Positions 50,253-64,000 of a stretch of 64,000 bases of DNA are shown here, piece after piece. The notes beneath the pieces were generated by a model, which saw only the letters and a list, made by a program, of their open reading frames with translations, was not told the origin of the DNA and did not search any database. Source of the stretch: Prillingera fragicola (lineage: Eukaryota > Basidiomycota > Tremellomycetes > Trichosporonales > Trichosporonaceae); the NCBI GenBank assembly GCA_002335605.1, contig BEDY01000002.1, positions 2,294,001 through 2,358,000 on the forward strand, read 5' to 3'. The number at the start of each line of letters is the position of its first letter. Position 1 is the first letter of the stretch. Made by a program: the position numbers and the translations under genes.

Positions 50253-52361
50253 ATGTTCATCACACGAGCTCTGGCGCTCGTCTTGGCGGCTACCACGGCA
50301 TTCGCAGCCGCAGAAGCACCAGTCGCCGCCAAAGCACCAGAGGCAGAAGTCGAGGATTTGCGCCAGCTCACCGTCGATACGTTCACGGCGTCCACCGCAC
50401 ATGGCGCTTGGTGAGTGGTACTGCTTGGCGCAAAACTAACGTGCCCAGGTTGGTGGAGCACTTTTCCCCTCGATGTAAGTCGCCGTACAGGAACACTTGC
50501 ACGCAGAGCTGATTCATCAGGTGGCCACTGCCGTGCTTTTGCGCCGACATGGGCAAAAGTAGCCAAGGAGAAGGAGGGCTTGGAGCGTCTCGCTGGGTTC
50601 CACATGGCCCAGGTCAACTGCCTGGCACAAGGAGGTAGGCATGCGATCAATTGCATTGCTGACCAGCAGATTTGTGTAACACCAACAACATTAAAGCCTG
50701 TACGTGTTCCTGGAATGCGGCGAACATTACTGACCCTATGTGAAGACCCTCAAATCATGCTGTACGTGCTCCAGCGAGCCGTTTCGGACAGTGCTGATCT
50801 GCAGGTACATTGACGGCAAGGAAGTTACCGAGTACAAGCAGGACCGAAACTACGACTTCCTCGTCAAGTGGATTGACGATGAGTCGGACAAGTACTACAA
50901 GAGCAGGATGGCCGAGCGTGGCGAGGTGGCCAGCCCTTTGAACAAGAGGCCCAATCCCGACGGTGTCATTGCCGAGCTCAACGAGAAGACCTACGACGAG
51001 CTCAAGGCCCAGGGACCCATGCTCGTCGAGTTCTTTGCGCCATGGTGTACCCAGTGAGTGCGTCCAGCTGAGGTAATGCTGATTTCCTCGCTAGTTGCAA
51101 AAAGCTCCGTCCCATCTATGAGACTCTGGCCACCGAGATGAGGGGCAAGATCAACATTGCTGCGGTCGACTGCGTGGCCAACAGCGCCTTTTGCCGCGGA
51201 CATGGCATTGCTGGCTTCCCTACCATCAGGCTCATTGATGGCGAGGCATCGACAGACTACGCTGCGGCTCGCACACTGGCCAAGATGTCTGCGTTCCTCA
51301 CAGACAAGATGAAGGCGTGAGTAAACCAAGGAGCGACTCGTCTGACCAGCAGTGCCACTATTCAGCAGATTGCGTCGTCGGACGAGTTGGAAGAAATCGT
51401 CAAGCACGAGAACCAGTTCTTCCTTTACTTGACCAACTTTGACACGACGGCCGAGGAGAAGGTATGTTTACGCTAACGAGCGCGCTGACCCCATAGGCTC
51501 AAGTGGAGAGCACACTCAAGCCGTTCATGTACTCGATCCCCACGTACACTGCCTCTGACCCCGTCATCTATGAAGGCCTGAACGTGGCCAACCCACCACC
51601 GACCTCGGTTCTTGTCGCCTTCTCGGGCCACAACCTCAAGCCCGAGGGCATGTTCCCTCTTCCTGCCGCCGACGATCAGCTGCGCCGCTTCATCAACAGC
51701 CACCGCTTCCCGACCCTTGTCGACCTGAACCCAGGCAACTTCAAGGAGGTCATGCAGAGCCCCGAGCACGCGCTCGTCGTCCTCGGAGCCATCCATACCG
51801 ATGGCCGCGAGCTGCAAGAGCGTGACACGCTCCTCAAGATTGCGCGAGCTTGGAAAAAGGGCGGTAGGCCCTTTACCCAGCCTGTGTGGTTTGCCGCTGT
51901 CGACGGCGAAAAGTGGCGCGGGTGGATGAAGCGTACCCTCGGCATCAGGCCGGCCGACATGCCCACTCTTGTGGTCATTGACACCGAGATGCAAGAGTAC
52001 TACGACATCACGATTGAGGGCCACCGCGCAAAGTTCAACGGCATCGATGCGTTCTCCGTACTCGAGGGCGTGTACCAGCACTTCCTCAAGCCCAAGAAGA
52101 TTGAATCCATGATGGCTTATGGCTCAAGGAGCGCGACCCTCATGATGATGGACCTCGGCGTGAGTCTCCCGGCCCTTACACGCACTGACCCCACAGCAAT
52201 GGAGCTCTGAAAACCCCGTCAAGTCCATGTTCGCTCTCATTGCCGCGGTAGCAATCTTTGTGCTCCTCCTCTCGCGCTGCGTCGCGCGCGACCTGAGTAA
52301 CCGCGGGGGGTACATGAACGAGAAGGGCGTGCACCGTCCCAACGACCAGCGTCTCGACTAG
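50253..52361 (+). CDS. ER transmembrane protein disulfide isomerase (TMX3/Eps1-like)
   Basis: Ten exons, several very small (26, 30 and 16 nt), with the frame confirmed by the thioredoxin folds. Signal peptide MFITRALALVLAATTAFA. The first thioredoxin domain carries CGHC (FSPRCGHCRAFAPTW), assembled across an intron. The second carries CTHC (FAPWCTHCKKLRP), with the His codon split by an intron. Two further thioredoxin-like regions without active cysteines follow (FFLYLTNFD; TLVVIDTEMQEYYD). A C-terminal membrane helix (SMFALIAAVAIFVLLLS) leads to a cytosolic tail RDLSNRGGYMNEKGVHR. There is no KDEL. The protein should catalyse disulfide formation or isomerisation for membrane-associated clients in the ER. 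Length, about 590, is typical for basidiomycete members. Confidence 0.92.
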
Positions 52362-52811
52362 GCGCAGACACGAGCAGATGTACGAGAGAGAGCGAGTAGC
52401 TAGATTTGACATACCCCGCGTTTCATGCATGGCACTGGCCCGGTATGTGCGCTGAGGTGTGGCGTGGATCATGGCTTTGCTTTCATGCGACTGGCACGTC
52501 TGGCTAGCTGACACATGTATGGCGGGACAAGGTGGCTCGAGAAGAATTAATGATATTGAATTAATTTCATGTCAAGGCCGGCGCTGCTCACAAATGCATC
52601 ACGCATCACGCATCACGCATCCAGCACCAACTGTAGCACTGTCGCCTTAACGAGGAAGGCTACGGCCACAGTCCAATTGAAGCAGATCGTAGTATCGTAA
52701 CTCATAGATGTACATGACTGTCTCAATATCGCTGGCACAGTCCTAGCTCTTCGATTCACGCTTACAACGCTGCCTGTTTCTGCTCACACTTGGACAAAGA
52801 CCCCTCATTTC
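52362..52811. other. Left border of the Myb/SANT-like array
   Basis: About 450 bases between the PDI stop and the first array gene. It contains an AT-rich patch (near 52540-52575) and a short direct repeat, CATCACG three or four times at 52593-52620. No gene was recognised. Confidence 0.5.
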
Positions 52812-53273
52812 CTAGTCTTCCTCATCGCGCTTCACATCCTTACCGCCATCCTCCTCCCCCTGCCCCCCAGCGCCAGCCCCACCCTTCCCCTCACCCATCC
52901 GCTTAACCTATCAATCAGCCCCTGCCACAAAAAAGAACTCACAAGCGCCTTCCAGCGATACTTGACCCCAGTCGCGCCCCGCTGGACAAGCTCGGGATGC
53001 TCCTTGGCCGCCCCCCACAGCCCGGCAGTGAGGACCTTGTCAATGGCGGAAAGGAGGAGGGCGTCCTCATGCGGTGTCCATTTGGTGTATGTCTTACGTG
53101 GCTGGGTGTCAGTTTGAGAGAGGGTGGGAGATTACTTTGGTGGATTTGGTGGATTTGGTGGGTTTGGTTGGTTTGTACTCTGGTTGAGCTGTTGTGGAGC
53201 GGGAGCGGGTGGTGCGTTTCACTCGTCGTGGTTTGTTGTCCTCGTCTGAAGTGGTGGTGCGCTTTGGTGGCAT
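52812..53273 (-). CDS. Myb/SANT-like single-domain protein, array member 1
   Basis: Starts MPPKRTTTSDEDNKP with a Lys/Arg/Thr-rich disordered leader (KPTKPTKSTKSTK), then a phase-0 intron (GTAATC ... CCCAG). The domain exon begins PRKTYTKWTPHEDALLL and ends GVKYRWKAL: three predicted helices with Trp-spaced hydrophobic core, as in Myb/SANT or MADF-like DNA-binding folds. A second phase-0 intron leads to the tail VKRMGEGKGGAGAGG and an acidic end. About 120 residues. It is one of nine related genes in this region and belongs with members 5, 8 and 9 (GLW or HLW, then GVKxxW). DNA or chromatin binding is inferred from the fold pattern only. No catalytic motif. Confidence 0.8.
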
Positions 53274-53585
53274 TTGGGGTTTCTGGTGATATGAAGAATG
53301 GATGTGAAGTGGCCGTGGATGAGAGGGCAACATGAAGAGAATGTTCTCGGGACTGGGTGCTCGGCTTTTGTGAAGTGTTCTTTTGAGCTTGCTCTGTATT
53401 GCCACAAGGCGCCGCCCTCGAGACACAAAGTGGGAATGCAGAGAACTGCAGGAGAGCATGACATCTTTAAGGCCAGCATTCAGTGACAGAGCTACATACA
53501 TACGAAAGCACAGCTGATTCAAGAGCGTCCACCCCAAGAGCAACTTCTCTCATGTCCACGCCACACTGACAATCTCCCATTGTAA
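53274..53585. other. Spacer between array members 1 and 2
   Basis: About 310 bases upstream of member 1 and downstream of member 2. It should hold the member 1 promoter. No other feature was recognised. Confidence 0.4.
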
Positions 53586-53956
53586 TCACTCCTCTTTGGC
53601 ACTCTCCTTTCCAAGACCCCGCGCCTAGAATCAGTGCTGCACTCATCCTCAACAAGACTCACAACACCCTTCCACCTCCGCTTCACATGCGGGCTCTTCC
53701 GCCCCTTGAGCACTGCGTCCCCGCGAATCTCTTCAGTGAGATACTTGTCCACCACGCGGTTCACTGCCGCGATGAGGTGGGCGTCTTCTTCGGGGGTCCA
53801 GCGGTTGATTTGGCGGCGGGTGGGTTTGGGTTTGGAGTCGGTTGGGAGTGGCTCGGTCTTGGGGACCGGAGACGGGGTGGTTGACGAGGGTCGACGACGG
53901 GTGGTGGGCTTGGTTTCTTCGTCGGAAGAGGAGAGCTGCCGCTTGACTCTGGGCAT
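53586..53956 (-). CDS. Myb/SANT-like single-domain protein, array member 2
   Basis: Starts MPRVKRQLSSSDEETKP. The leader reads straight into the domain (RRQINRWTPEEDAHLI ... KSPHVKRRWKGV), so this copy lacks the first intron present in all its relatives. The second intron (GTGAGTCTTG ... TTCTAG) is retained and joins the short tail ARGLGKESAKEE. About 110 residues. Belongs with members 3, 4, 6 and 7 (KRRW or KxRW, then a small Lys-rich tail). Putative nuclear DNA-binding protein; no family name recognised. Confidence 0.8.
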
Positions 53957-54117
53957 GGTGGTGTGGGTGGTGTGAGAATAGTGATGGGATGAGCACACAC
54001 TGATAGCTTGACAGGGCACATGCATTACAGCGCTCGCACTCGATATGATCACACATGCTGCACACTGCAAATGCGGTCACATCTCAAAGCTGGCCAGAAC
54101 TACAACTGCATGCCTAG

Positions 54118-54503
54118 CTAGCTCTTCTTGGTCAAAGCGAGCGACTTGGCCTACCCGTCAGCGCACCCCGACACAGGACTCACAATGGTCCTCCACCGGC
54201 GCTTGGTTTCAGAAACCCCACGCTTGGCGAGTACGTGATTGGCCTTGACCCTGTCGCCGAGCGCTTCTTCCACCAGCGCAGTCACTTCCTTGATGAGCTC
54301 GGCGTCCTCCTCTGGAGCCCAGCGGTTGAGGGGTTGGCGGGGTTTTGGCTGGGGATTAGTTTAGGTGATGTGGTGAGGCTGACTTCTGTGTTGCGTTTTG
54401 GGGGTTTGGTGTGCTTTGTTGGCTTAGAGTCTTGCTCTTCTGAGTAGGGCTGAGACCGTTTGAGGATGGGTTTGTAGTCTTGCGGCTCTGGTGAGGATGA
54501 CAT
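54118..54503 (-). CDS. Myb/SANT-like single-domain protein, array member 3
   Basis: Starts MSSSPEPQDYKPILK, with leader DSKPTKHTKPPKRNTE. An intron (GTCAGC ... CCCAG) leads to the domain exon PKPRQPLNRWAPEEDAEL ... GVSETKRRWRTI. A second intron leads to the tail AKSLALTKKS. About 105 residues. The first intron has the less usual donor GTCAGC. Closest to member 4 by the leader, the NRW entry and the tail (AKSL versus AKGL), suggesting a recent tandem duplication. Confidence 0.8.
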
Positions 54504-54670
54504 GGATGGATGAGAATGATGGTGAGTTGAGAGGAGTGTGGCGCACAATGACACTTCACATCGACTCTGAAGGGCGACACTCAGTGGTCAGGCGCTGGCT
54601 TTCACTGTGCGGAGAGGAAGAAAAATACATGTACAGTACAGAACTCTGCTGCTCACTTCTCATCAGTGCA

Positions 54671-55064
54671 TCACTTGGACCCCTTCGCGTTCGGCGCCAG
54701 CCCTTTAGCCTCTCCCATCAGCCTCCCATATCGCAGCTTCTCAGTCACTCACAATGGTCTTCCACCGCCGCTTAATCTGCCACACACCGCGATTAGCCAG
54801 CAGCGGGTCGTTGGGAATCCGCTGGCTCGTGAGGTGTTCTTCTACAAGGGCATTAACAATCTCGACCAGGTGTGCGTCTTCGGCTGCTGTCCAGCGGTTG
54901 GAACTGGCGCGGGGTTTGGACTGGGGTCAGTGGGGTGGGGTGGGCTTGGTGGCGTGGCGTACTGATTTGGTGTCTTTGGGCTTTTTAGCTGGGGTGTCTC
55001 CGTCGGGGGAGGGTTCGTGTTTGAGCTTTGGTTTGATTTCTTGAGTGTCTGGTGAGGATGGCAT
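54671..55064 (-). CDS. Myb/SANT-like single-domain protein, array member 4
   Basis: Starts MPSSPDTQEIKPKLK, leader SPDGDTPAKKPKDTK. The domain exon SKPRASSNRWTAAEDAHL ... NRGVWQIKRRWKTI is flanked by two introns; the tail AKGLAPNAKGSK ends at 54671. About 105 residues. The acceptor before the tail could be two bases away, but only the AKGL reading matches the neighbouring copy in sequence and stop position. It is divergent from member 5 across about 340 bases. Confidence 0.8.
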
Positions 55065-55403
55065 TGTACTCGATTGCAGCGTGGGTGTAGTGGTGATGAG
55101 AAGAGCTGAGGAGTGTTCTCATAGCAAGTTGGTGTGTCCACTGGCGGCGGGATGAATGTGTGCCATATTCCTGCACGTTTGGGCACCATAGTCAGTACAG
55201 CAGTCTAGGCCTGCTTCTGTGGTGTGATGCTCGCCCTTTGTTCTTGCACGCTGTGTGCTGACAACACTGTGTGTCTGTCAAGAGGTGTGCTTACCACACT
55301 TGTGCTCGCAATCAGTGCTCTACAAATCCCAAGTAACTTTCTCACTCCACTTCTTTCTCCCCTTGCACTCCCACTCTACTGCACGACTATACACTACCAC
55401 ACA
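55065..55403. promoter_or_regulatory. Divergent promoter between array members 4 and 5
   Basis: About 340 bases between divergent array genes, the point where orientation flips. It holds both promoters; the member 5 side is pyrimidine-rich (TTCTTTCTCCCCTTGCACTC). No inverted-repeat structure is obvious. Confidence 0.5.
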
Positions 55404-55796
55404 ATGGTCAAGCGCTCACTCTCCACCGACTCCGAGTCTCAGGACGACTTCAAACCAGTAGTTGACAGTGACAACGACAAGCCTACGAAGAGTGCTCGCA
55501 AAACCAAGGGCAAGGTGCACCTCCCCATCATTCCATGTGCTGATGCCAGGCCACACCCCAGCGCAAAGAACGCAAGGAATGGACACAGGCCGAAGAGACT
55601 GCTTTCCTTGCAGCCCTCGACAAAGTTGCCCAGCAGCATTTGTGGGAGGTGCTCAAGGGCCATCCCGTGGTGGGTGGGAGGAGGAGTAATGGTGTCAAGA
55701 TGCATTGGGCGGCCATGGTGAGTCTCCTGAGCAGGCAGCATGGTGGCTAACTGGAGCCAGTACCGCAAGATCCAATCGCAGTTCTTGACCAAGTAG
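55404..55796 (+). CDS. Myb/SANT-like single-domain protein, array member 5
   Basis: Exons 55404-55514, 55550-55717 and 55761-55796 give 104 residues, all junctions in phase 0. Leader MVKRSLSTDSESQDDFKP, Lys-rich end ARKTKGK. The domain exon runs RKEWTQAEETAFLAALD ... SNGVKMHWAAM, followed by the tail YRKIQSQFLTK. The aromatic-basic start of the tail (YRK) matches FKR in member 8 and FRR in member 9, so the tail helix is part of the conserved fold, not a random end. E-E replaces the more common E-D after the Trp. Confidence 0.82.
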
Positions 55797-56139
55797 CACT
55801 ATTGCAAGCACTCTTGTATAGATTGAATGACCGCTGTGTATGCATGCAACCTGCGCGGCGAGTGATGGTTTCGGCAGAGCCTCAAAGCACAAGATGTGTG
55901 CCCTCCTCGCCGGTCACCCAACAACCGGTAACGTTCAGCGACAAACTCACGTCCTCCCTCAACAATCAGCATTGTACAAACTACACTCCTCTCTTTCTCG
56001 CACATCATGTTGTAACATCTCAGTCAATTGTGACACACTCCAGCCATCCTCTGCTACTCCCGATTCCATTCCCACCGTCACAAACGCAACACCTCCACTT
56101 CCAACTCTCATTCTCAAGGACGACAACTGGCAGCAAACA
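55797..56139. other. Spacer between array member 5 and orphan gene
   Basis: About 340 bases that are open in one frame without codon bias. The part just before 56140 is a pyrimidine-rich leader ending CAAACAATGG, a good fungal start context. If the orphan gene starts earlier, part of this would be coding. Confidence 0.4.
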
Positions 56140-57121
56140 ATGGGGCGTTGGTGGAGTCTTCCATGCTGCTTGACTAAGTCGTCTCTTCTGTTAGAAGACG
56201 TAGACGAACAACACCCACCCAAGCACAGGTCCAGCTGCCTCTGCATGTCATGCTGCGGCAACGACCTGGAACACGACTGGCCACAACCGACCAAGGCTGA
56301 TCGGCCGCTCACGCCTTCTAGATGCACTTCCAGCCTCACAGTGAGCCCTCTCCCCTCAGCTACATCTCAAGCTAACGTCCCAGCCCCCCTCCCCGGTCGA
56401 ACAACCCCTCATCTCAACAAGCTCCTCACCGACCAACTCGCTCCCCACCGAATCCTCGGACGGGCGGACCCCAACACCTCTCGTCGGCATTCTCAAATTC
56501 CGCCCCCACCTTACCCCAGCCGAGCGGGACAACGCAACCTGGGCAGCAGCACACATGCTGCAAATCGCCCACGAGATCACTCGCCTACACCCCAGCACGG
56601 GGGACACGCGTATCCCCGCAGCCCTCCGCGATCGATTCGCCGACACGCTCCGCCACGCCGCGGCGGCAAAGGGGCGCCTCACAATGGTGTTTCCTGCCGA
56701 AACGTATGCCTTCTCTCACATGCTTGAGGAAGCTGCTCGAGCAATGTTCACCTGGCCGCTGAGCCACGGTGAACTCGTGTTCTCCATAGACGAGCGATAC
56801 TGGCTCGTCCTCGTCCTCCGCACCGCCGCGTGGTATCTCAACCCCGACCCCGACGTGGCCGCTGGCGTGCCGAGCCCCCCGCCAGCGTCGTTTGGGCACA
56901 AGACGGCCGAGCTGTATTGTATCTGGATGGAAGTCGAGAGTGATCCTGGGTCGTATGAGGCGGCGGTGTCCCTTGTGGAGGAGAGGTTTGAGCAGCGCAA
57001 CAGCTGTGTTGTCGAGGAAGAGCCCGAGGTGCATGTTAGTTTTGCTGCGGAGCCGGTGAGGCCGGTCAAGGATACGAGGAGGCGGAAGTGGTTTTCTAGG
57101 ACTCTGGAGCTACTCTACTAG
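56140..57121 (+). CDS. Orphan protein inside the array
   Basis: Two exons: about 56140-56340, beginning MGRWWSLPCCLTKSSLL, and an exon from about 56384 to 57121, joined over a 43-nt intron with a CTAAC branch point. About 310 residues. The second exon has the strong C/G-ending codon pattern of real genes: GILKFRPHLTPAERDNATW, AALRDRFADTLRHAAAAK, DERYWLVLVLRTAAWYL, YCIWMEVESDPGSYEAAV, closing DTRRRKWFSRTLELLY. It looks like an alpha-helical globular domain. The N-terminus is Cys-rich and Gly follows Met, so lipidation is conceivable. No family was recognised and no Myb-like motif is present. The start is uncertain; upstream in-frame ATGs exist. Confidence 0.55.
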
Positions 57122-57346
57122 AGTCCATGGGCGAGGACAAGCTATACATAGTTTTTGCATGCTGGGTTGCTAGGTCTATAGCGCGATGAAGTACACGACA
57201 CGAACCATCTCCCGTGAGCACCTTTGGCAGCCTCAACTTAGGGCGCTGGCCGCTGCTCACAAGATACAGCCACACACCAAGACATCAACTCACAACCTCA
57301 TTCCCACACCACTCTACCCTCCTCATCCAATAATACCAACATCATC

Positions 57347-57812
57347 ATGCCAGAGAAACGCGCGCTGCCTCCAGCCACCGACACCAAGCCCCCTCTCACC
57401 AGTTCCGAACAAAGCGACGCCACGATCAAGCCCGAGCCCTCCTGGCAGCCCACATCCGACTTCGTCGTCAAGCCCGCGAAACGCGGTCGCGGCCGTCCCC
57501 CGAAGGACAAGACCAAGCCAATTGTGAGCCAGCTACGTCGGTGAAGCGTGAGTCCTCTGACAGCAGGCAGAAACAAACGATTCGCAAACCATGGACACCC
57601 CTCGAGGACGCCCACCTCCTCGCTGCGGCGGATAAGCTCATGGCGAGCTCGCTGGACGTCAAGGGCGACGCTGTACTCGCGGCCCGGGGTATGACTATGG
57701 CCAAGCAGCGGTGGAAGACTCTTGTGAGTCTGGTTCTGCTTGGGAGGCTGATGGGTAGTCGAGGCGTATTGCTGCTGCTGGCGGCGCGGACAAGGTCAAG
57801 GCTGAGGAGTGA
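57347..57812 (+). CDS. Myb/SANT-like single-domain protein, array member 6
   Basis: Exon 1 starts MPEKRALPPATDTKPP and ends with AT-hook-like GRGRPPKDKTKPI. A phase-0 intron ending CAGGCAG leads to the domain exon KQTIRKPWTPLEDAHLLAA ... MTMAKQRWKTL, and a second intron to the tail SRRIAAAGGADKVKAEE, stopping at 57812. About 125 residues. The RGRPPK core is a minor-groove (AT-hook) motif seen in chromatin proteins, the best direct hint in the array that these proteins bind DNA. The helix 1-2 loop is shorter than in the other members. Confidence 0.82.
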
Positions 57813-57922
57813 CCTCCATAGTGCATGCTGCTATATGTACAACTCGCTGCCGTCTAGCTCCCTAGCCCACTTCACTGTACAACGCTGTTCCAATGTCACA
57901 CTGCTGAGTTCACGAACACACC

Positions 57923-58132
57923 TCATTTCACCTCGCCGCCGGCTCCGCTCATCGTTCCCTCCAACTTGCCCTCTGGGGCTACCACTTTTGGTGAGCAGCG
58001 GCGCTCCCAGAGCGACATGTGCTCGTCATAGGCCGCCCGCCATTTGGGTCCATCCGGCGGGGCTAGCGCCTGCTCGAGAGTTGCAGGGAGGGCATCATCC
58101 AAAGAGCGCTCCGAGATCCCGACCGCCGGCAT
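57923..58132 (-). pseudogene. Copia-type reverse transcriptase N-terminal fragment
   Basis: A 69-codon frame (MPAVGISERSLDDALP) includes LEQALAPPDGPKWRAAYDEH, then MSLW and a VVAPEGK-like end. This matches the well-known start of the Ty1/Copia reverse transcriptase domain (pattern EAL..PD...W..A...E...L, then V..P.GK). Nothing after it continues the reverse transcriptase, and no integrase or LTR is seen around it, so it is a truncated relic or an exapted short gene. It is complete from ATG to stop, which leaves open that it is expressed. Confidence 0.5.
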
Positions 58133-58550
58133 TGCTGTGGCAGCGAGAGTGAGAGTAGGATGGGTGGATGGAGGAAGGAACCATGGACGCTGAGAGAGGC
58201 CAGCTTTTGTGTGGCTGATAACAATCTGCTTCCGTTGACAACAAAAGTTAATCGCCTAATCGTTTGATGTTGGCAGGTGTAAAGACAGAGGTCGTACACA
58301 GACGTTGTAACGTCGTAAACGATGCACAGATGCGAAAGACCCATGAAGCGTGGAGAGAATCACAGTTTGAAATAGATCTTTCTAGAGTTCCCCGGCGCTG
58401 TGTTTTTGTCCACTCAGCAAGCGAACTCCTGTACCACGGTGAAAGCCACAATGCGCCTCTCGCACACAGCATCCGAGCTGGCATGTCAGCAAACACGAGC
58501 ACACAACTCTGCCCAACACACCAACCTCATTCTCACACCACCTACTCATC
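58133..58550. promoter_or_regulatory. Spacer before array member 7
   Basis: About 420 bases holding the promoter of member 7. Just before its start lies CAACCTCATTCTCACACCAC, nearly identical to the leader of member 6. No other gene was recognised. Confidence 0.5.
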
Positions 58551-59142
58551 ATGTCAGTCAACCGCGAACCCACCCCAGCCACCCTCGACGACATCAAGGA
58601 CCTAATCGCGTCGTCTCCCGAGCCAAGCCCGTCTCCGGAACCTCGGACATCTCCCGAGCCTGGATCCACGCCAGAGCCAGTCTCGGACAAGGAGGATTCC
58701 GAGTTTCGTCCCAAGCCTGACAGTCCCTTTGACCTCAAACTCGAGTCCGAGTCCGAGTACGTCGAGGAGAGTGACGAGGACGTCAAGCCCAAGAAGCGTG
58801 CGCGTACGAGCCCCAAGTCCGAGAAAAAACCTAGGGCCTCGGTGCGTTTACTTCCTGGCCAAACAAAGCTGATGGCATAGAATGGAGGCGGCGGCGGTCG
58901 CAACCTGTGGACCGCGGAGGAGAATGCCTGTCTTCTTGAAGCTGTTGACCGCCTTGTGGCCGCCGGCCTCCAGAGTGAGGTCAAGAAGAATCCAATGCTA
59001 GCCAAGCGCGGTGTCAAGCGGGCTAAAGAGCGCTGGAGGCTGATGGTGCGTTTTTCTGTATAGCGGGGGGCTGGTGCTGATGGGATAGTCAAAGCGTTTC
59101 ATGTTGTCTGTTGGTGCTGGGACCGTCAAGGGTCAGAAGTAG
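58551..59142 (+). CDS. Myb/SANT-like single-domain protein, array member 7
   Basis: Exon 1 (58551-58841, 97 codons) is the longest leader of the array: MSVNREPTPATLDDIKD, then SP/EP-rich acidic repeats (SPEPSPSPEPRTSPEPGS) and a basic end KPKKRARTSPKSEKKPR that resembles a nuclear localisation signal. The domain exon NGGGGGRNLWTAEENACL ... GVKRAKERWRLM is flanked by phase-0 introns; the tail is SKRFMLSVGAGTVKGQK. About 170 residues. E-N replaces E-D after Trp. A polyglycine stretch joins leader to domain. Confidence 0.82.
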
Positions 59143-59319
59143 TTGATGGTACAGCTAGCACGTCGCAAGAACAGTCATGTACCATATGCTATCATGCTAT
59201 CCAATGGTACAGAAATGCCCAAGATTGAGCTCTGGACAGCGGCTCTGGCTTTTCACTCATCTGTAACCCTGCCATGCATGTCATGCGCATCTGTATAACG
59301 CGGCTTCGCTGATGATTGT

Positions 59320-59761
59320 CTAGCTAGGCTTGGGCGCGGCAAGACGCTTAAACTGGCCATCAGATACTGTGACGAAAGCAAACTCACAGCTGCCTTCCAA
59401 TGAGCCTTGATACCAGCATTCTGACGGGAAGCAAGTCCAGGATCCTCCTTGAGAACACCCCAGAGATGCTCAGAGACAATCTTGTCGATCGCAGCATAAA
59501 ACTTTGCGTCCTCCTCGGCGGTCCACTGACGCGGAGCTTGACCTTTGGCCTTCTTGGGGTTCTGGCGGTTAAGCTATGGGGAGGCCCTTGCCGACTTGGG
59601 AATCTCACCTTGGGGGCCTTGTTGCCAGTGGTCTTGATCTTGGGTTTCTCCTCGTCCATGGAATGGGACTCGGGCTTGATGTTGTCATCACCATTGCCGA
59701 CACCAGTGGCGCTGCGAGCCTCCGGCGAGAAGGAGGAGGAAGCGGGTCGCTTGGGCGGCAT
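59320..59761 (-). CDS. Myb/SANT-like single-domain protein, array member 8
   Basis: Starts MPPKRPASSSFSPEARS, the same MPPKR opening as member 1. Leader ends TTGNKAPK. The domain exon LNRQNPKKAKGQAPRQW, TAEEDAKFYAAIDKIV ... NAGIKAHWKAA is followed by an intron and the tail FKRLAAPKPS. About 125 residues. Very close to member 9 (both KAHWKAA; EHLW followed by KE(D/N)P), so these two are a recent tandem pair. Confidence 0.82.
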
Positions 59762-60049
59762 GATTTTGGATGAAAGAGAGAATAAGAATGATATGAAACT
59801 GTCAAGATTAAGCGACAAAAGCCTGGAGGGATAGTGGGAAACAAGTTCTTGTCAGGATGATGTGAGTGTGGCCGTCGGCAATTTGTGCCTTGTGTGACCA
59901 GCTGGTAGACTTCATAGGCAACCTCAGACAGCTCCAGTCGGCAACTGATAGGCTTATGAGGGCACCGTCAGCTATGAAGCACTGTCCGAGTAACAGAGCT
60001 ATGCATCCTGGCAACCACAACTCCGCCAGGCTACCTTGCGTGCGACTGG

Positions 60050-60450
60050 TCAGGTTTGGAAGTCATCCTCCGAAACTCCCCAGTCAGCGCCACAGTATGA
60101 GGGACAACTCACAGCAGCCTTCCAGTGCGCCTTGACACCAGCCGAGAGCCGCGCAGCGAGAGCGGGATTCTCTTTGGCCTTTTCCCAGAGATGCTCCTTG
60201 ACGATCTCGTCGACGAGGCCGTAGAAGAGGTCGTCCTCGGATTGCGTCCACGGGCGGTGGGTTTGCTTGGTGCCGGTTTTTTTGGTCTGTGGTCTCAGTT
60301 TGATTGGGAAGGCAGGCTCACCTTGCCTTTGGCGCTGTGGGTGGTTTCTGTATCCGAGACTTCAGACTCGGACTCGTGGTGACGGTCGCCGTGGTCGACT
60401 CCCTCGGCGGTGGTGTGAGGGTGTGAGCGAGGAGTGCGAGTCGCGGGCAT
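60050..60450 (-). CDS. Myb/SANT-like single-domain protein, array member 9
   Basis: Starts MPATRTPRSHPHTTAEG, leader ends THSAKGK. The domain exon TKKTGTKQTHRPWTQSED, DLFYGLVDEIVKEHLW ... AGVKAHWKAA is flanked by two introns; the tail is FRRMTSKP. About 110 residues. It is the right-hand end of the array on the present evidence; no further copy is seen up to 64000. Confidence 0.82.
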
Positions 60451-61162
60451 GTTGAGCTCAGTGTAGTTCTGATGTCAAGTCTTCAACGTGAGAACTTTGG
60501 AAGTTGTCAGACTGCCATAACGTCTCAACATCGGGACTTTGTGGGCACGAGGGCTTTCGGGATTTGGAGGAAGCACGTCACCAATGTATGTAGCACTGTA
60601 CTCGTGGGCTGTCTCGACCTGTGTGCAACAGCTGAGTTGAGGCAATGAGTTACAGTCTAGTGGTGTGTCATTGCTAGTTTGCGTGTACAGAGAAGGGGGA
60701 GTGAGGAATCGAGAAGTGAACGATGCAGCAAGAGGACACAGAACCCAGCACTCGTGCCGGCTTGACGATGAGAGCCGGTGATGGAGTCTGTTCCCAAGAA
60801 GTCTTCACGCACACACTCTTGTAGTCCCAACTGTGCAGCACAAGCCACTCCCAGTCCCGCCACGAGTTTCCTTCGTACTGTGGGCTTACCACTACGTACA
60901 AGTTCACGCCCAGTTAATGCACTTTGTGGGGTTCGTTGTGGAAGATATGCAGATCTGACATGTGATTCTGTTTATATAAGATGATGCACATGCTGGTTCT
61001 GGGAGTTGGTGCAGCCAATGTGTGTCGCTCGCACGAGAGGAGGATGGTTAGCTGATGTGTGTGTGGCGCCACACATTCCCCAGCCCACCATGGGAACCCG
61101 ACTTGTTATCATCCTCTCATCCTGTCATCCTCCCACTCTCCAGTCATTCTACCACTTGAACC
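60451..61162. other. Gene-free stretch, about 710 bases, right of the array
   Basis: No splice-supported frame was found. It separates divergent array member 9 and the Cys-motif gene and so should hold both promoters. A TTTATATAA run at about 60971 is a possible TATA-like element. Confidence 0.45.
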
Positions 61163-62031
61163 ATGAGCAGCGACCACTTTCCTGACCCGCCGTCCCCAGT
61201 GATTGCACCTTCCAACGCCATGGTTCGCCCGGCCCGTTATCAGCAAGCTGCCACAGCCTGCACCGACGATGACGATATCATCATGATCGACACCGACCAC
61301 CACAGCGCCGACATCAATCCCATCATTCCCACCAGTCGCCGTCTAATTCACCGCTCTCCTACACCTGACCTCCCAGCCCTTCTCTCTCCCCGCCTGAGAC
61401 CCCTCGACCAGGCCCCCAAGCCACCCAAGAACAAACGCCAACACTCCCCTCCAACCGCCACCCACCGCAAACGCCCAGCCCGCACCGAGCCTCTGTTCCT
61501 GCCGGACCAAGACAGTGACATAGAAATCACAGGAGGTGCCCCAGGATCCAGCCGCCAACCCCCTCCCGAGCACATCACGGACCTGACCCACCTGGCCTCA
61601 GACGACGACGACGACCCGCCTCTGCGCGCCGTGACGACTGAAGAGCGTAAAGCCGCGCGCTCCCAGGCGCTCTACCTGGCGCCGGAAGAGGAACGCTGCG
61701 ACTTGTGCGGCTGCTCCTACCGCGTCTCGGGCGTGCGTGGGCGGGGCGCGGGCAGTCGTGTGCTCACCCCGCAGGTGCGCGGGAATCTTGCCTGTGAGTG
61801 GCACACCACTCGCCATGCTGACGGGTAGTTGTGCTGCTTGGTGGTCAGAAGGCTGGGGTGCAGTCTCAGCCGCTGGCGCATATTCGTGCTATTCATAAGG
61901 ATCTGGAGAGCTGGAAGGACGTGGCCGAGTTTGTTGGCGCGGGCGCGGAGGAGGCCGAGAGGGTTGCCAAAGCTGCTGCTGGGATCATGAAGGATATCCC
62001 GGTTGGCATGGCGCGGGGTGACTTTTACTAG
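61163..62031 (+). CDS. Disordered protein with a small Cys motif
   Basis: Two exons (61163 to about 61793, about 61829-62031) around a 35-nt intron with a CTGAC branch point; about 277 residues. Starts MSSDHFPDPPSPVIAPS. The first 170 residues are disordered, with acidic runs (DDDDIIMID; SDIEIT; ASDDDDDPP) that resemble SUMO-interacting motifs (hydrophobic core beside acidic residues). Then comes a compact end: EERCDLCGCSYRVSG, with three close cysteines, and a helical C-terminus (HIRAIHKDLESWKDVAEFV, AERVAKAAAGIMKD). No family was recognised. The acidic/hydrophobic motifs and basic patches would suit a nuclear protein, but this is inference. Confidence 0.65.
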
Positions 62032-62171: not shown

Positions 62172-63611
62172 CTACAACTTGCTCTCCCTCCCGGCATAGA
62201 CCCCAGCAGCATGCCCAACAGCCGTCTCTCCCGGGACATCGACGACGCCAGAGTCCTCCTTGTTGTAAATATCACTGTACCGCGCAACGGCAGCCTTTTC
62301 GAGATCCGCGTCCTTTTCCATCCTAAACCGCTTGGGATCGAGTGCAAACCGGAGCTCGCGCTCCGTCGTATCAAGACCAGGGGCTTGAATCCCCGTAGCC
62401 TCGAGAATCTCACGCGCGAGCACCCCGACGCCTCCAGCAGCGTGCGTGACCCACAGCCCCACGGCGCACCACAGCCCCTCGTTGGCGGCCGACCCCCGGC
62501 GGGTACCCTTTGCGTCGCGCCCCCCCTCGATGCGGCCCACGAGCGGCACCCCGTCCGGCGTGACGGTGAACAAGCCGTTGAAGCCCCACGACCTGCTCTC
62601 CCAGCTCTGCACGCCGTCGGGGGCATGCACTACGCGGCCCTCGAACCGCCCCGCCGTCGCTGGGGGAAGACACTTGACAGCCCTGTCGAGACCAGCCCCG
62701 ATCCTGTCCTCCCACGCGACATACGCCTCCTTCAACCCCGCGACATATCCCATCGGCACCCGCACCCCCGGGTGGTCATAGCTGCCCACCCCGTCGCGGT
62801 CCCCGTGGTCGCGCGCATAGTGGTGCTCGACCGGCCAGCGGATCCACGGTTGCTGCCCCGACCCCGTTGCGCCCGCCATGCGTGGGCGGGGTGCGCGCGT
62901 CGCGCTGAAGTGGTAAGGATGCTTGACGGCCACGCACCGCCCGGCGAGGTTGGGGCACAGCTGCCCCGCCCACGCGCCGGTGCAGAGGACAATGTGCGGG
63001 GCGGTGAATGCCCTCTCGCCCGCGGCGGTACGTGTGTGCACGACGTAGCCGGCCGGGTCGGGGTCGTGGTAGGACTCGGAAGGTGGCGGCGGGGCGCGCT
63101 GGACGGCCAGTACGTCGGCGTCGATGAGCGCCGCCCCGTGCTGTGCCGCGACGGCCTGCCCGTGCCGCGCACAGACTTTGGCGTACGCGACGCCGTCGGC
63201 TGGGAAATGCAGCCCACCAGCGTTGGTGCGTGGCACGAAATCCGGCGCAAGGGCCGCAGCGTCCGAGGACGACAGGAGCTTGTTCGGTAACCCGTAGCCT
63301 TCCGCCAGCGCCGCGCGTTCGGCCAGCACGCCCTCTGTCCCAGCTACGGCGGCGATTTCGAGGCCGCCCCGCGCGTCCCAGCCGTTCGGGATCGAGGCAT
63401 AGTACTTTACGCTCCGGCGGGCCAGCTCGGTCAGCACGGGCAGCACGTTGAGCTGCCCCACGATGCCGGGCGCGTGGCCTGTCGCTCCTGGGAGAGCGTG
63501 TACGCTGCGGTCTAGAACGAGAACGTTCATGTGCGGTGCGAGGAGGCCCGCGAGCGTGCTGCCCGCGATGCCTGCGCCGATGATGATGAGGTCGTACGCG
63601 TCGTTTGCCAT
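62172..63611 (-). CDS. FAD-dependent oxidoreductase of the DAO family
   Basis: Single exon, 479 residues from MANDAYDLIIIGAGIAGS to GRESKL. The N-terminus is a textbook FAD-binding beta-alpha-beta unit (GAGIAGSTLAGLLA, followed by VLVLDRS). GATGHAPGIVGQLN matches the DAO-fold loop of dimethylglycine/sarcosine dehydrogenases and related enzymes (SxxSAGIVG/N type). IVLCTGAWAG and a C-terminal GFNGLFTVTPDGVPLVGRI with HAAGGVG complete the FAD site. The GcvT-like folate domain of true dimethylglycine dehydrogenase is absent, so this is a stand-alone amine or amino-acid oxidase of unknown substrate. The C-terminal SKL is a canonical peroxisomal targeting signal, so the enzyme should act in peroxisomes, where the hydrogen peroxide it makes can be removed. 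Confidence 0.88.
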   Translation of the reverse strand: MANDAYDLIIIGAGIAGSTLAGLLAPHMNVLVLDRSVHALPGATGHAPGIVGQLNVLPVLTELARRSVKYYASIPNGWDARGGLEIAAVAGTEGVLAERAALAEGYGLPNKLLSSSDAAALAPDFVPRTNAGGLHFPADGVAYAKVCARHGQAVAAQHGAALIDADVLAVQRAPPPPSESYHDPDPAGYVVHTRTAAGERAFTAPHIVLCTGAWAGQLCPNLAGRCVAVKHPYHFSATRAPRPRMAGATGSGQQPWIRWPVEHHYARDHGDRDGVGSYDHPGVRVPMGYVAGLKEAYVAWEDRIGAGLDRAVKCLPPATAGRFEGRVVHAPDGVQSWESRSWGFNGLFTVTPDGVPLVGRIEGGRDAKGTRRGSAANEGLWCAVGLWVTHAAGGVGVLAREILEATGIQAPGLDTTERELRFALDPKRFRMEKDADLEKAAVARYSDIYNKEDSGVVDVPGETAVGHAAGVYAGRESKL

Positions 63612-64000
63612 CTCGGGGTTCGGCGTCCAGGTGTTCAAGCTGAAGCTGGGCAGGGAGAAGCCTTGGAGACGCTGGAGATGTTGCTAAGAAGCGCCGGGCG
63701 GAGGTAGAGACGACTGGCTGGCGTTGTTGACAACTTTGGCGGTGACGGTCAGCAGAACAACCTGGTTGGTGGGAAGAAGTCTCTTGTCATCTCGGTTGAT
63801 AAGTACTGTCGCCGAGTGCAGTGCCAGTGGTCATGGTCGTGCTGATTACCGTGTGAGACGGCCAAGTCCGGAGAAGTGCGGATTGGACTGGCGAGTCAGA
63901 TGATCAGTCGTGGTCAGCTGAGATGCTGCGCTGGGTGGGCGGGCATCGGCGGTGGCTTGGGATGCCGATGAGAACCGTTGTTATTCCGTCATGTTGTCTG
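63612..64000. other. Right edge, promoter side of the DAO oxidoreductase
   Basis: About 390 bases upstream of the oxidoreductase start. No exon, RNA or repeat was recognised. Confidence 0.45.

Follow-up and report, generated by a model that had tools for sequence, protein, structure and literature searches.

A local array of nine small genes for probable Myb-type proteins in Prillingera fragicola

Layout of the array

The genome of the basidiomycete Prillingera fragicola (Trichosporonales; assembly GCA_002335605.1) carries on contig BEDY01000002.1 a cluster of nine small genes, here called g1 to g9, each of which encodes one copy of the same short domain, probably of the Myb type. The cluster is described within a stretch of 64,000 nucleotides (positions 2,294,001 to 2,358,000 of the contig, forward strand; GC content 60%), which we refer to as the window and whose own numbering is used throughout. 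An initial annotation had placed nine genes at 52812-60450, and the spliced gene models agree with these ends, the g1 stop codon ending at 52812 and the g9 start codon beginning at 60450.

Genes g1 to g4 are on the minus strand, g5 to g7 on the plus strand, and g8 and g9 again on the minus strand. Their models were predicted from the DNA, with splice sites inferred from GT-AG, reading frame and homology, and specify spliced proteins of 102-169 amino acids (aa). Eight of the nine genes consist of a leader exon, a domain exon and a short tail exon, the departure from this plan being g2, which is without intron 1. Intron 1 occupies an equivalent site in phase 0 in the other eight, and intron 2 the same site, also in phase 0, in all nine; the 17 introns measure 33-47 bases each. 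Intron 2 cuts the coding sequence three residues past the last tryptophan of the domain, and the tail exon then reads (A/F/S/V/Y)-(K/R)-(R/G/S/K).

Profiles built from any eight of the domains retrieve the ninth from the 1560 six-frame open reading frame (ORF) pieces of the window at E values of 1.9e-14 to 9.9e-22, and the full nine-row profile detects no tenth copy among these pieces, its first match outside the family having an E value of 0.38. The nine-member family is real and stands well above chance. In the minus-strand group, g1 (52812-53273; 130 aa; leave-one-out E 6.1e-19) has exons at 53136-53273, 52943-53101 (the domain) and 52812-52907, while g2 (53586-53956; 110 aa; E 4.7e-19) has leader and domain together in 53663-53956, followed by 53586-53624. 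The exons of g3 (54118-54503; 105 aa; E 6.8e-16) are 54384-54503, 54184-54348 (domain) and 54118-54150, and those of g4 (54671-55064; 102 aa; E 2.8e-19) are 54963-55064, 54753-54920 (domain) and 54671-54709. On the plus strand, g5 (55404-55796; 104 aa; E 1.4e-16) is read from 55404-55514, 55550-55717 (domain) and 55761-55796; g6 (57347-57812; 127 aa; E 1.9e-14) from 57347-57523, 57571-57723 (domain) and 57759-57812; and g7 (58551-59142; 169 aa; E 3.9e-18) from 58551-58841, 58881-59045 (domain) and 59089-59142. The last two genes, both on the minus strand, are g8 (59320-59761; 119 aa; E 9.9e-22), with exons 59609-59761, 59388-59561 (domain) and 59320-59352, and g9 (60031-60450; 115 aa; E 3.4e-19), with exons 60322-60450, 60113-60286 (domain) and 60031-60075.

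The description of the locus as an array of nine holds insofar as the nine genes lie together, but the row is interrupted by sequences that do not belong to the family. A plus-strand ORF at 56140-57121, probably a gene of two exons whose start and splice were read by eye, has a Cys-rich beginning followed by an open frame of 258 aa. Neither of the frames 56345-57118 and 55831-56724 has a Pfam match, and the former gives a single match in the genome, with no second copy. A short ORF on the minus strand (57923-58132), which may not be a gene, likewise has no Pfam match over 57923-58255. The array lies between a thioredoxin-like gene, the last large exon of which is at 51497-52207, and an FAD oxidoreductase (62175-63683). 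About 273 kb separate it from the end of its contig, which is 2.63 Mb long, so that a subtelomeric location is not supported, with the proviso that the contig end may not be the chromosome end.

One shared domain among old duplicates

The earlier proposal that one domain pattern is common to the nine genes is borne out in a refined form, W-x3-E-x15-L-x(10-13)-R-x5-K-x2-W, in which six positions, namely W, E, L, R, K and W, are invariant across the nine domains. Pairwise identity of the domains ranges from 16% to 59%. Since nonsynonymous divergence (dN) is smaller than synonymous divergence (dS) in all 28 domain pairs for which dS could be computed (it is undefined in 8 of the 36), protein-level constraint on the nine domains is likely. 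The dN/dS ratio itself is rough, dS being near or at saturation in many pairs, and there are pairs in which codon third positions are not those with the most divergence (in g1 and g9 they are 0.67 identical, versus 0.57 and 0.61 for the other two positions). Together with the phase-0 introns, these figures agree with the suggestion that the genes are old duplicates which share a gene structure and have been kept under selection, the last part being probable.

In a tree built from 52 columns, g1, g5, g8 and g9 group together at 0.914 (0.965 without g1), as do the neighbours g2, g3 and g4 at 0.909. The pairing of g6 with g7, at 0.585, is not a resolved group; the leaders of these two genes are alike (z 5.1).

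The Myb-type reading and its rivals

Comparison of a profile of the domain exons with 177,635 sequences of solved structures placed Myb proteins first (MYB21 at 7e-6, SNAPC4 at 1.3e-4, c-Myb at 0.0023 and TRF2 at 0.027), and with the spliced tail added to the profile Myb proteins were again on top, at 1e-4 for the best. The call of a Myb/SANT-like domain that had been made from the sequence is thus upheld, as Myb-type by profile. The best stretches of the MYB21 and SNAPC4 matches cover the first helix only, and one might suppose that the nine are helical proteins of some other fold, such as a helical hairpin, with a Myb likeness limited to the W-T-x-x-E-D of that helix. We regard this as quite improbable; once the spliced tail is included in the profile, the alignments with c-Myb R3 and TRF2 extend across almost the entire domain, at E values of 0.0017-0.0055.

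All nine members touch the Pfam family PF00249 at E≤10 (best 2.3e-4), and matches to PF13921 span the domain in two of five pieces. Used against ten ordinary Myb stretches of the genome, a tiny set, the family profile picks Mybs with a best E of 6e-7. Of the tryptophan pattern expected for a Myb domain, the first and third core residues are present in all nine members, but the second is kept in just four; the others have a gap or one of T, G and Q at this position, beside which lies an invariant Leu. A Lys or Arg follows the last tryptophan in eight of nine. The isoelectric point (pI) of the domain is 8.4-10.6 in all nine, and helix 3 carries a net charge of +4 to +6. A basic domain with a basic third helix is expected of DNA-binding Mybs rather than of SANT domains. 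Because of these charges and the Myb-led profile matches, a Myb-type DNA-binding domain is the best reading of the sequences.

Two sets of results limit that reading. The PF00249 scores that were reported fall below the curated cut-off of 24.4 bits (12.8-18.2 bits for five pieces; the first member scores 13.8 and 15.4), and even the best E value, 2.3e-4, corresponds to only about 22 bits as estimated from 18.2 bits at E 0.0028. Structure prediction, which the initial annotation had proposed as a check of the helix-turn-helix fold, did not come out in its favor: two AlphaFold models, made from an alignment of just the nine sequences with the tail exon left out, have two or three helices, of which the first is long, and no recognizable Myb bundle, so that the fold is unproven though, with such input, not refuted. 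Compared with known Mybs, these models, with the same restricted input, reach template-modeling (TM) scores of 0.32-0.38 at a root-mean-square deviation above 10 Å, and no Foldseek match has an E value below 0.97. The relation to the Myb/SANT superfamily (PF00249, PF13921) can be summed up as a likeness in the W-T-x-x-E-D of the first helix, the R-x5-K-x2-W of the third and a domain length of ~50 residues, set against the Pfam scores, the eroded second tryptophan and the models.

The same weakened tryptophan core and the lack of a classical Myb in the AlphaFold models, along with the acidic leader of g7 (pI 4.7), would suit small SANT-like modules that bind histones or protein complexes and make no contact with DNA. 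Such an interpretation must be reconciled with the basic domain and third helix found throughout the family, and with the identity of the solved chains that score better, which are DNA-binding domains of Myb and TRF proteins. Chd1 (chromo domain-containing protein 1), which has a SANT-slide unit, appears only at E ~0.5 and over 12 residues. We consider SANT-like modules unlikely.

Binding to repetitive DNA had also been put forward as a role for these proteins, and the matches to TRF-type Mybs were the reason for following up a telomere binder. When the C-terminal half of the domain is used alone, all 11 matches are TRF1, TRF2 or Terfa chains, although E values of 0.11-0.56 give them no significance when taken alone. 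With the spliced domain as query, the alignment to TRF2 chains extends over almost its full length, and E is 0.0028-0.0055 for six of these chains. The nine share with the telomere Mybs TRF1, TRF2, Terfa and Tay1 the series R-x5-K-x-R-W-R/K at the same spacing. They might be viewed as degenerate descendants of a TRF/Tay1-type Myb, whose duplicates came to target subtelomeric sites or other repeats. The consensus of the telobox core in helix 3 is K-D-[KR]-[WF]. Its aspartate is absent in nine of nine members, which differ from one another at this place, and because the core is missing the telomere binder was set aside as the lead explanation. Nor do the nine proteins have a TRFH domain among their Pfam matches at E≤1 or a second Myb, whereas Tay1 has two Mybs and TRF1 and TRF2 bind as homodimers, as passages of PMC7952879 and PMC4839565 describe; the homodimeric binding of single-Myb telomere proteins (PMC4839565, in part) contrasts with the lack of a visible dimerization domain in the nine.

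The telobox VDLKD[KR][WF], searched for in the genome as an exact DNA pattern without mismatches, had no match, although a telobox that is variant or split by an intron would escape such a search; no standard telobox is thus seen to fill the role, and either the telomere Myb of this species has a variant core, or its telobox is split by an intron, or it is absent. What is left of the repeat-binding proposal, the second choice of mechanism after the one favored below, is a weak lead from the C-terminal half, and a retargeted TRF/Tay1-type origin for the array is, like the SANT-like modules, unlikely.

Distribution and possible role of the family

The genome that was searched consists of 17 contigs and totals 20.25 Mb. 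Six of the nine domain exons served as queries and found at least 9, 8 and 7 places at E≤1 and at least 8, 6 and 10 at E≤10, all counts being lower bounds. Every one of these places lies inside the array except for a single match of 21 residues (E 0.049) on another contig, C3, in a stretch where three ordinary Myb matches lie within 1.1 kb. This stretch, C3:300222-301306, is also the one that scores best with the family profile when the ten ordinary Myb stretches are compared. PF00249 itself, searched against the genome at E≤0.1, found 15 places, none of them in the array.

Among proteins, a search with only g8 as query yielded 9 candidates but no match at E≤0.1, and one with an alignment of all nine gave 3485 candidates and no match at E≤1 in a collection that includes Trichosporonales. 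This coverage is indicated by a control with the Cog8 gene of the window, because that gene retrieves Trichosporonales proteins: it had 249 matches, and the best 120 of them are led by Apiotrichum porosum, Vanrija albida, metagenome proteins, Trichosporon asahii and Cutaneotrichosporon, the closest named protein among these 120 being that of A. porosum (55% identity over 88%). Cog8, long and conserved, is an unmatched control for a short and fast-changing protein, and the coverage that it indicates is of annotated proteins of moderate divergence. Within the searches made, the family is probably restricted to this lineage of the Trichosporonales. The earlier statement that no named family could be recognized stands, there being no reported Pfam score over the cut-off and no homologue at E≤1. 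Among the papers listed in a literature search, which covered few subscription journals, none describes such an array. The sequence family thus appears to be new, while its kind, a lineage-specific tandem expansion of Myb-type genes, is known already.

Small single-Myb proteins are known in PIF/Harbinger-type elements, and the array could in principle consist of relics of such an element or another one, in which Myb-like accessory genes have become fixed. Two of the nine members do touch Myb_DNA-bind_4 (PF13837, the Trihelix family) at E≤10, yet the likeness is weak, the best E value of 0.01 falling short of the 27-bit cut-off, and the three places that PF13837 finds in the genome all lie outside the array. 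The single locus in the genome searches, the open frames, gene structure and dN<dS of the nine genes, and the lack of a transposase match among 20 ORFs of the window that were scanned (a sample rather than an exhaustive set) make a mobile-element origin very improbable.

Other small Myb proteins provide partial parallels. The single-repeat R3-MYBs of plants (CPC, TRY, ETC and TCL), as passages of PMC3986520 describe them, are of less than 120 aa, consist mostly of one Myb repeat, occur as several paralogues, with ETC2/TCL2 as a tandem pair, and can be negative regulators. Very short one-Myb proteins in paralogous sets are common to these plants and our array, an analogy of how they might work, across kingdoms. 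The signature given there for interaction with basic helix-loop-helix (bHLH) proteins, [DE]Lx2[RK]x3Lx6Lx3R, is found in none of the nine, and a plant-type R3 repressor was rejected for this reason. TayL1 of Glomeromycota, which we compare by its description alone (PMC7952879, in part), is close to Tay1 and, like the nine, a small fungal protein with little but Myb sequence; it has two Myb copies with conserved TTAGGG-binding residues, whereas the nine have one domain and no KD core.

The leaders of the nine proteins are rich in Lys, Ser and Pro, and z exceeds 2 in only 8 of 36 pairwise leader alignments. A motif chosen after looking, [DEQ][DEQ]x(0-2)KP, occurs in seven of nine leaders (shuffle mean 0.74; none of 20000 shuffles reach 7). 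The leader of g6 contains an AT-hook-like GRGRPP, that of g7 is long, acidic and rich in Ser, Pro and Glu, and psi-K-x-E sites, one or two each, are present in g4, g6, g7 and g8. These features fit disordered, modifiable nuclear tails and prove nothing. None of the nine members has an EAR-type repression motif, and their Pfam matches at E≤1 include no dimerization, catalytic or other further domain.

The explanation that we favor, and hold to be reasonably probable, is that of an old, locally duplicated and lineage-restricted family in the Trichosporonales, made up of nine small, basic, probably nuclear proteins with one Myb-type helix-turn-helix domain each. The third helix, which is basic and typically reads K-x-[RH]-W-K-x-x-x-K-R, would be placed in the major groove of DNA, and the disordered leader, with its AT-hook-like sequence in g6, might add contacts or affinity. 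Each protein would then be a short binder with a sequence preference, and at the sites that it occupies it would recruit larger factors, compete with them or tune them; we infer such a competitor or accessory role because no other domain was recognized. Together the nine would amount to regulators of genes or of chromatin that are private to this yeast. If the proteins are active binders of DNA, they would form a compact, private family of regulators at one locus of a small yeast genome, with no relative found elsewhere, and one could ask how a lone Myb without dimerization or activation domains pays its way and how fast its specificity shifts after tandem duplication. Three short exons and sub-threshold Pfam scores make genes of this type easy to miss in annotation.

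A bolder variant would regard the array as a set of diversified DNA readers: duplicates in place of one Myb that kept the fold and the residues gripping the backbone (R, K, W) while base-reading positions changed, so that nine different DNA words are read by a private combinatorial set of regulators or silencers, perhaps acting on its own CACACCA-rich promoters. The two most variable of the 16 columns of helix 3 (44-59 of our alignment) are columns 46 and 50, which we take to be base-contacting positions in known Mybs. Because columns 5, 26 and 62 outside the helix are equally variable, diversification is not evidenced by this variability, and it was rejected as evidence of that kind. The word CACACCA has 11 sites in the array (52400-60700, 8.3 kb), as against 12 in the remainder of the window (55.7 kb), a density about six times higher (5 sites in the next 20 kb); the Poisson p of 3e-6 against the rest of the window applies to a word picked from many k-mers and a background that is mostly coding. 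Nine of the 11 sites lie no more than 250 bp upstream of a member, serving six members, with one site shared by g5 and g4. As a shared promoter word CACACCA is a lead only, and the diversified-reader variant as a whole seems to us decidedly unlikely.

A stretch of 20 bases, 95% identical, is present upstream of both g6 (57293-57312) and g7 (58522-58541) and is possibly a shared promoter element. Just past the array, a plus-strand ORF at 61160-61825 has an acidic, Pro-rich start and a CxxC...C-x-W-H stretch, with no Pfam match. Near the other end of the window, a minus-strand open frame of 792 aa (386-2761) has a Zuotin-like domain, a C2H2 (jaz) zinc finger and an SRR1 domain, and may encode a fusion of a Jjj1-like protein with SRR1, or else comprise two genes.

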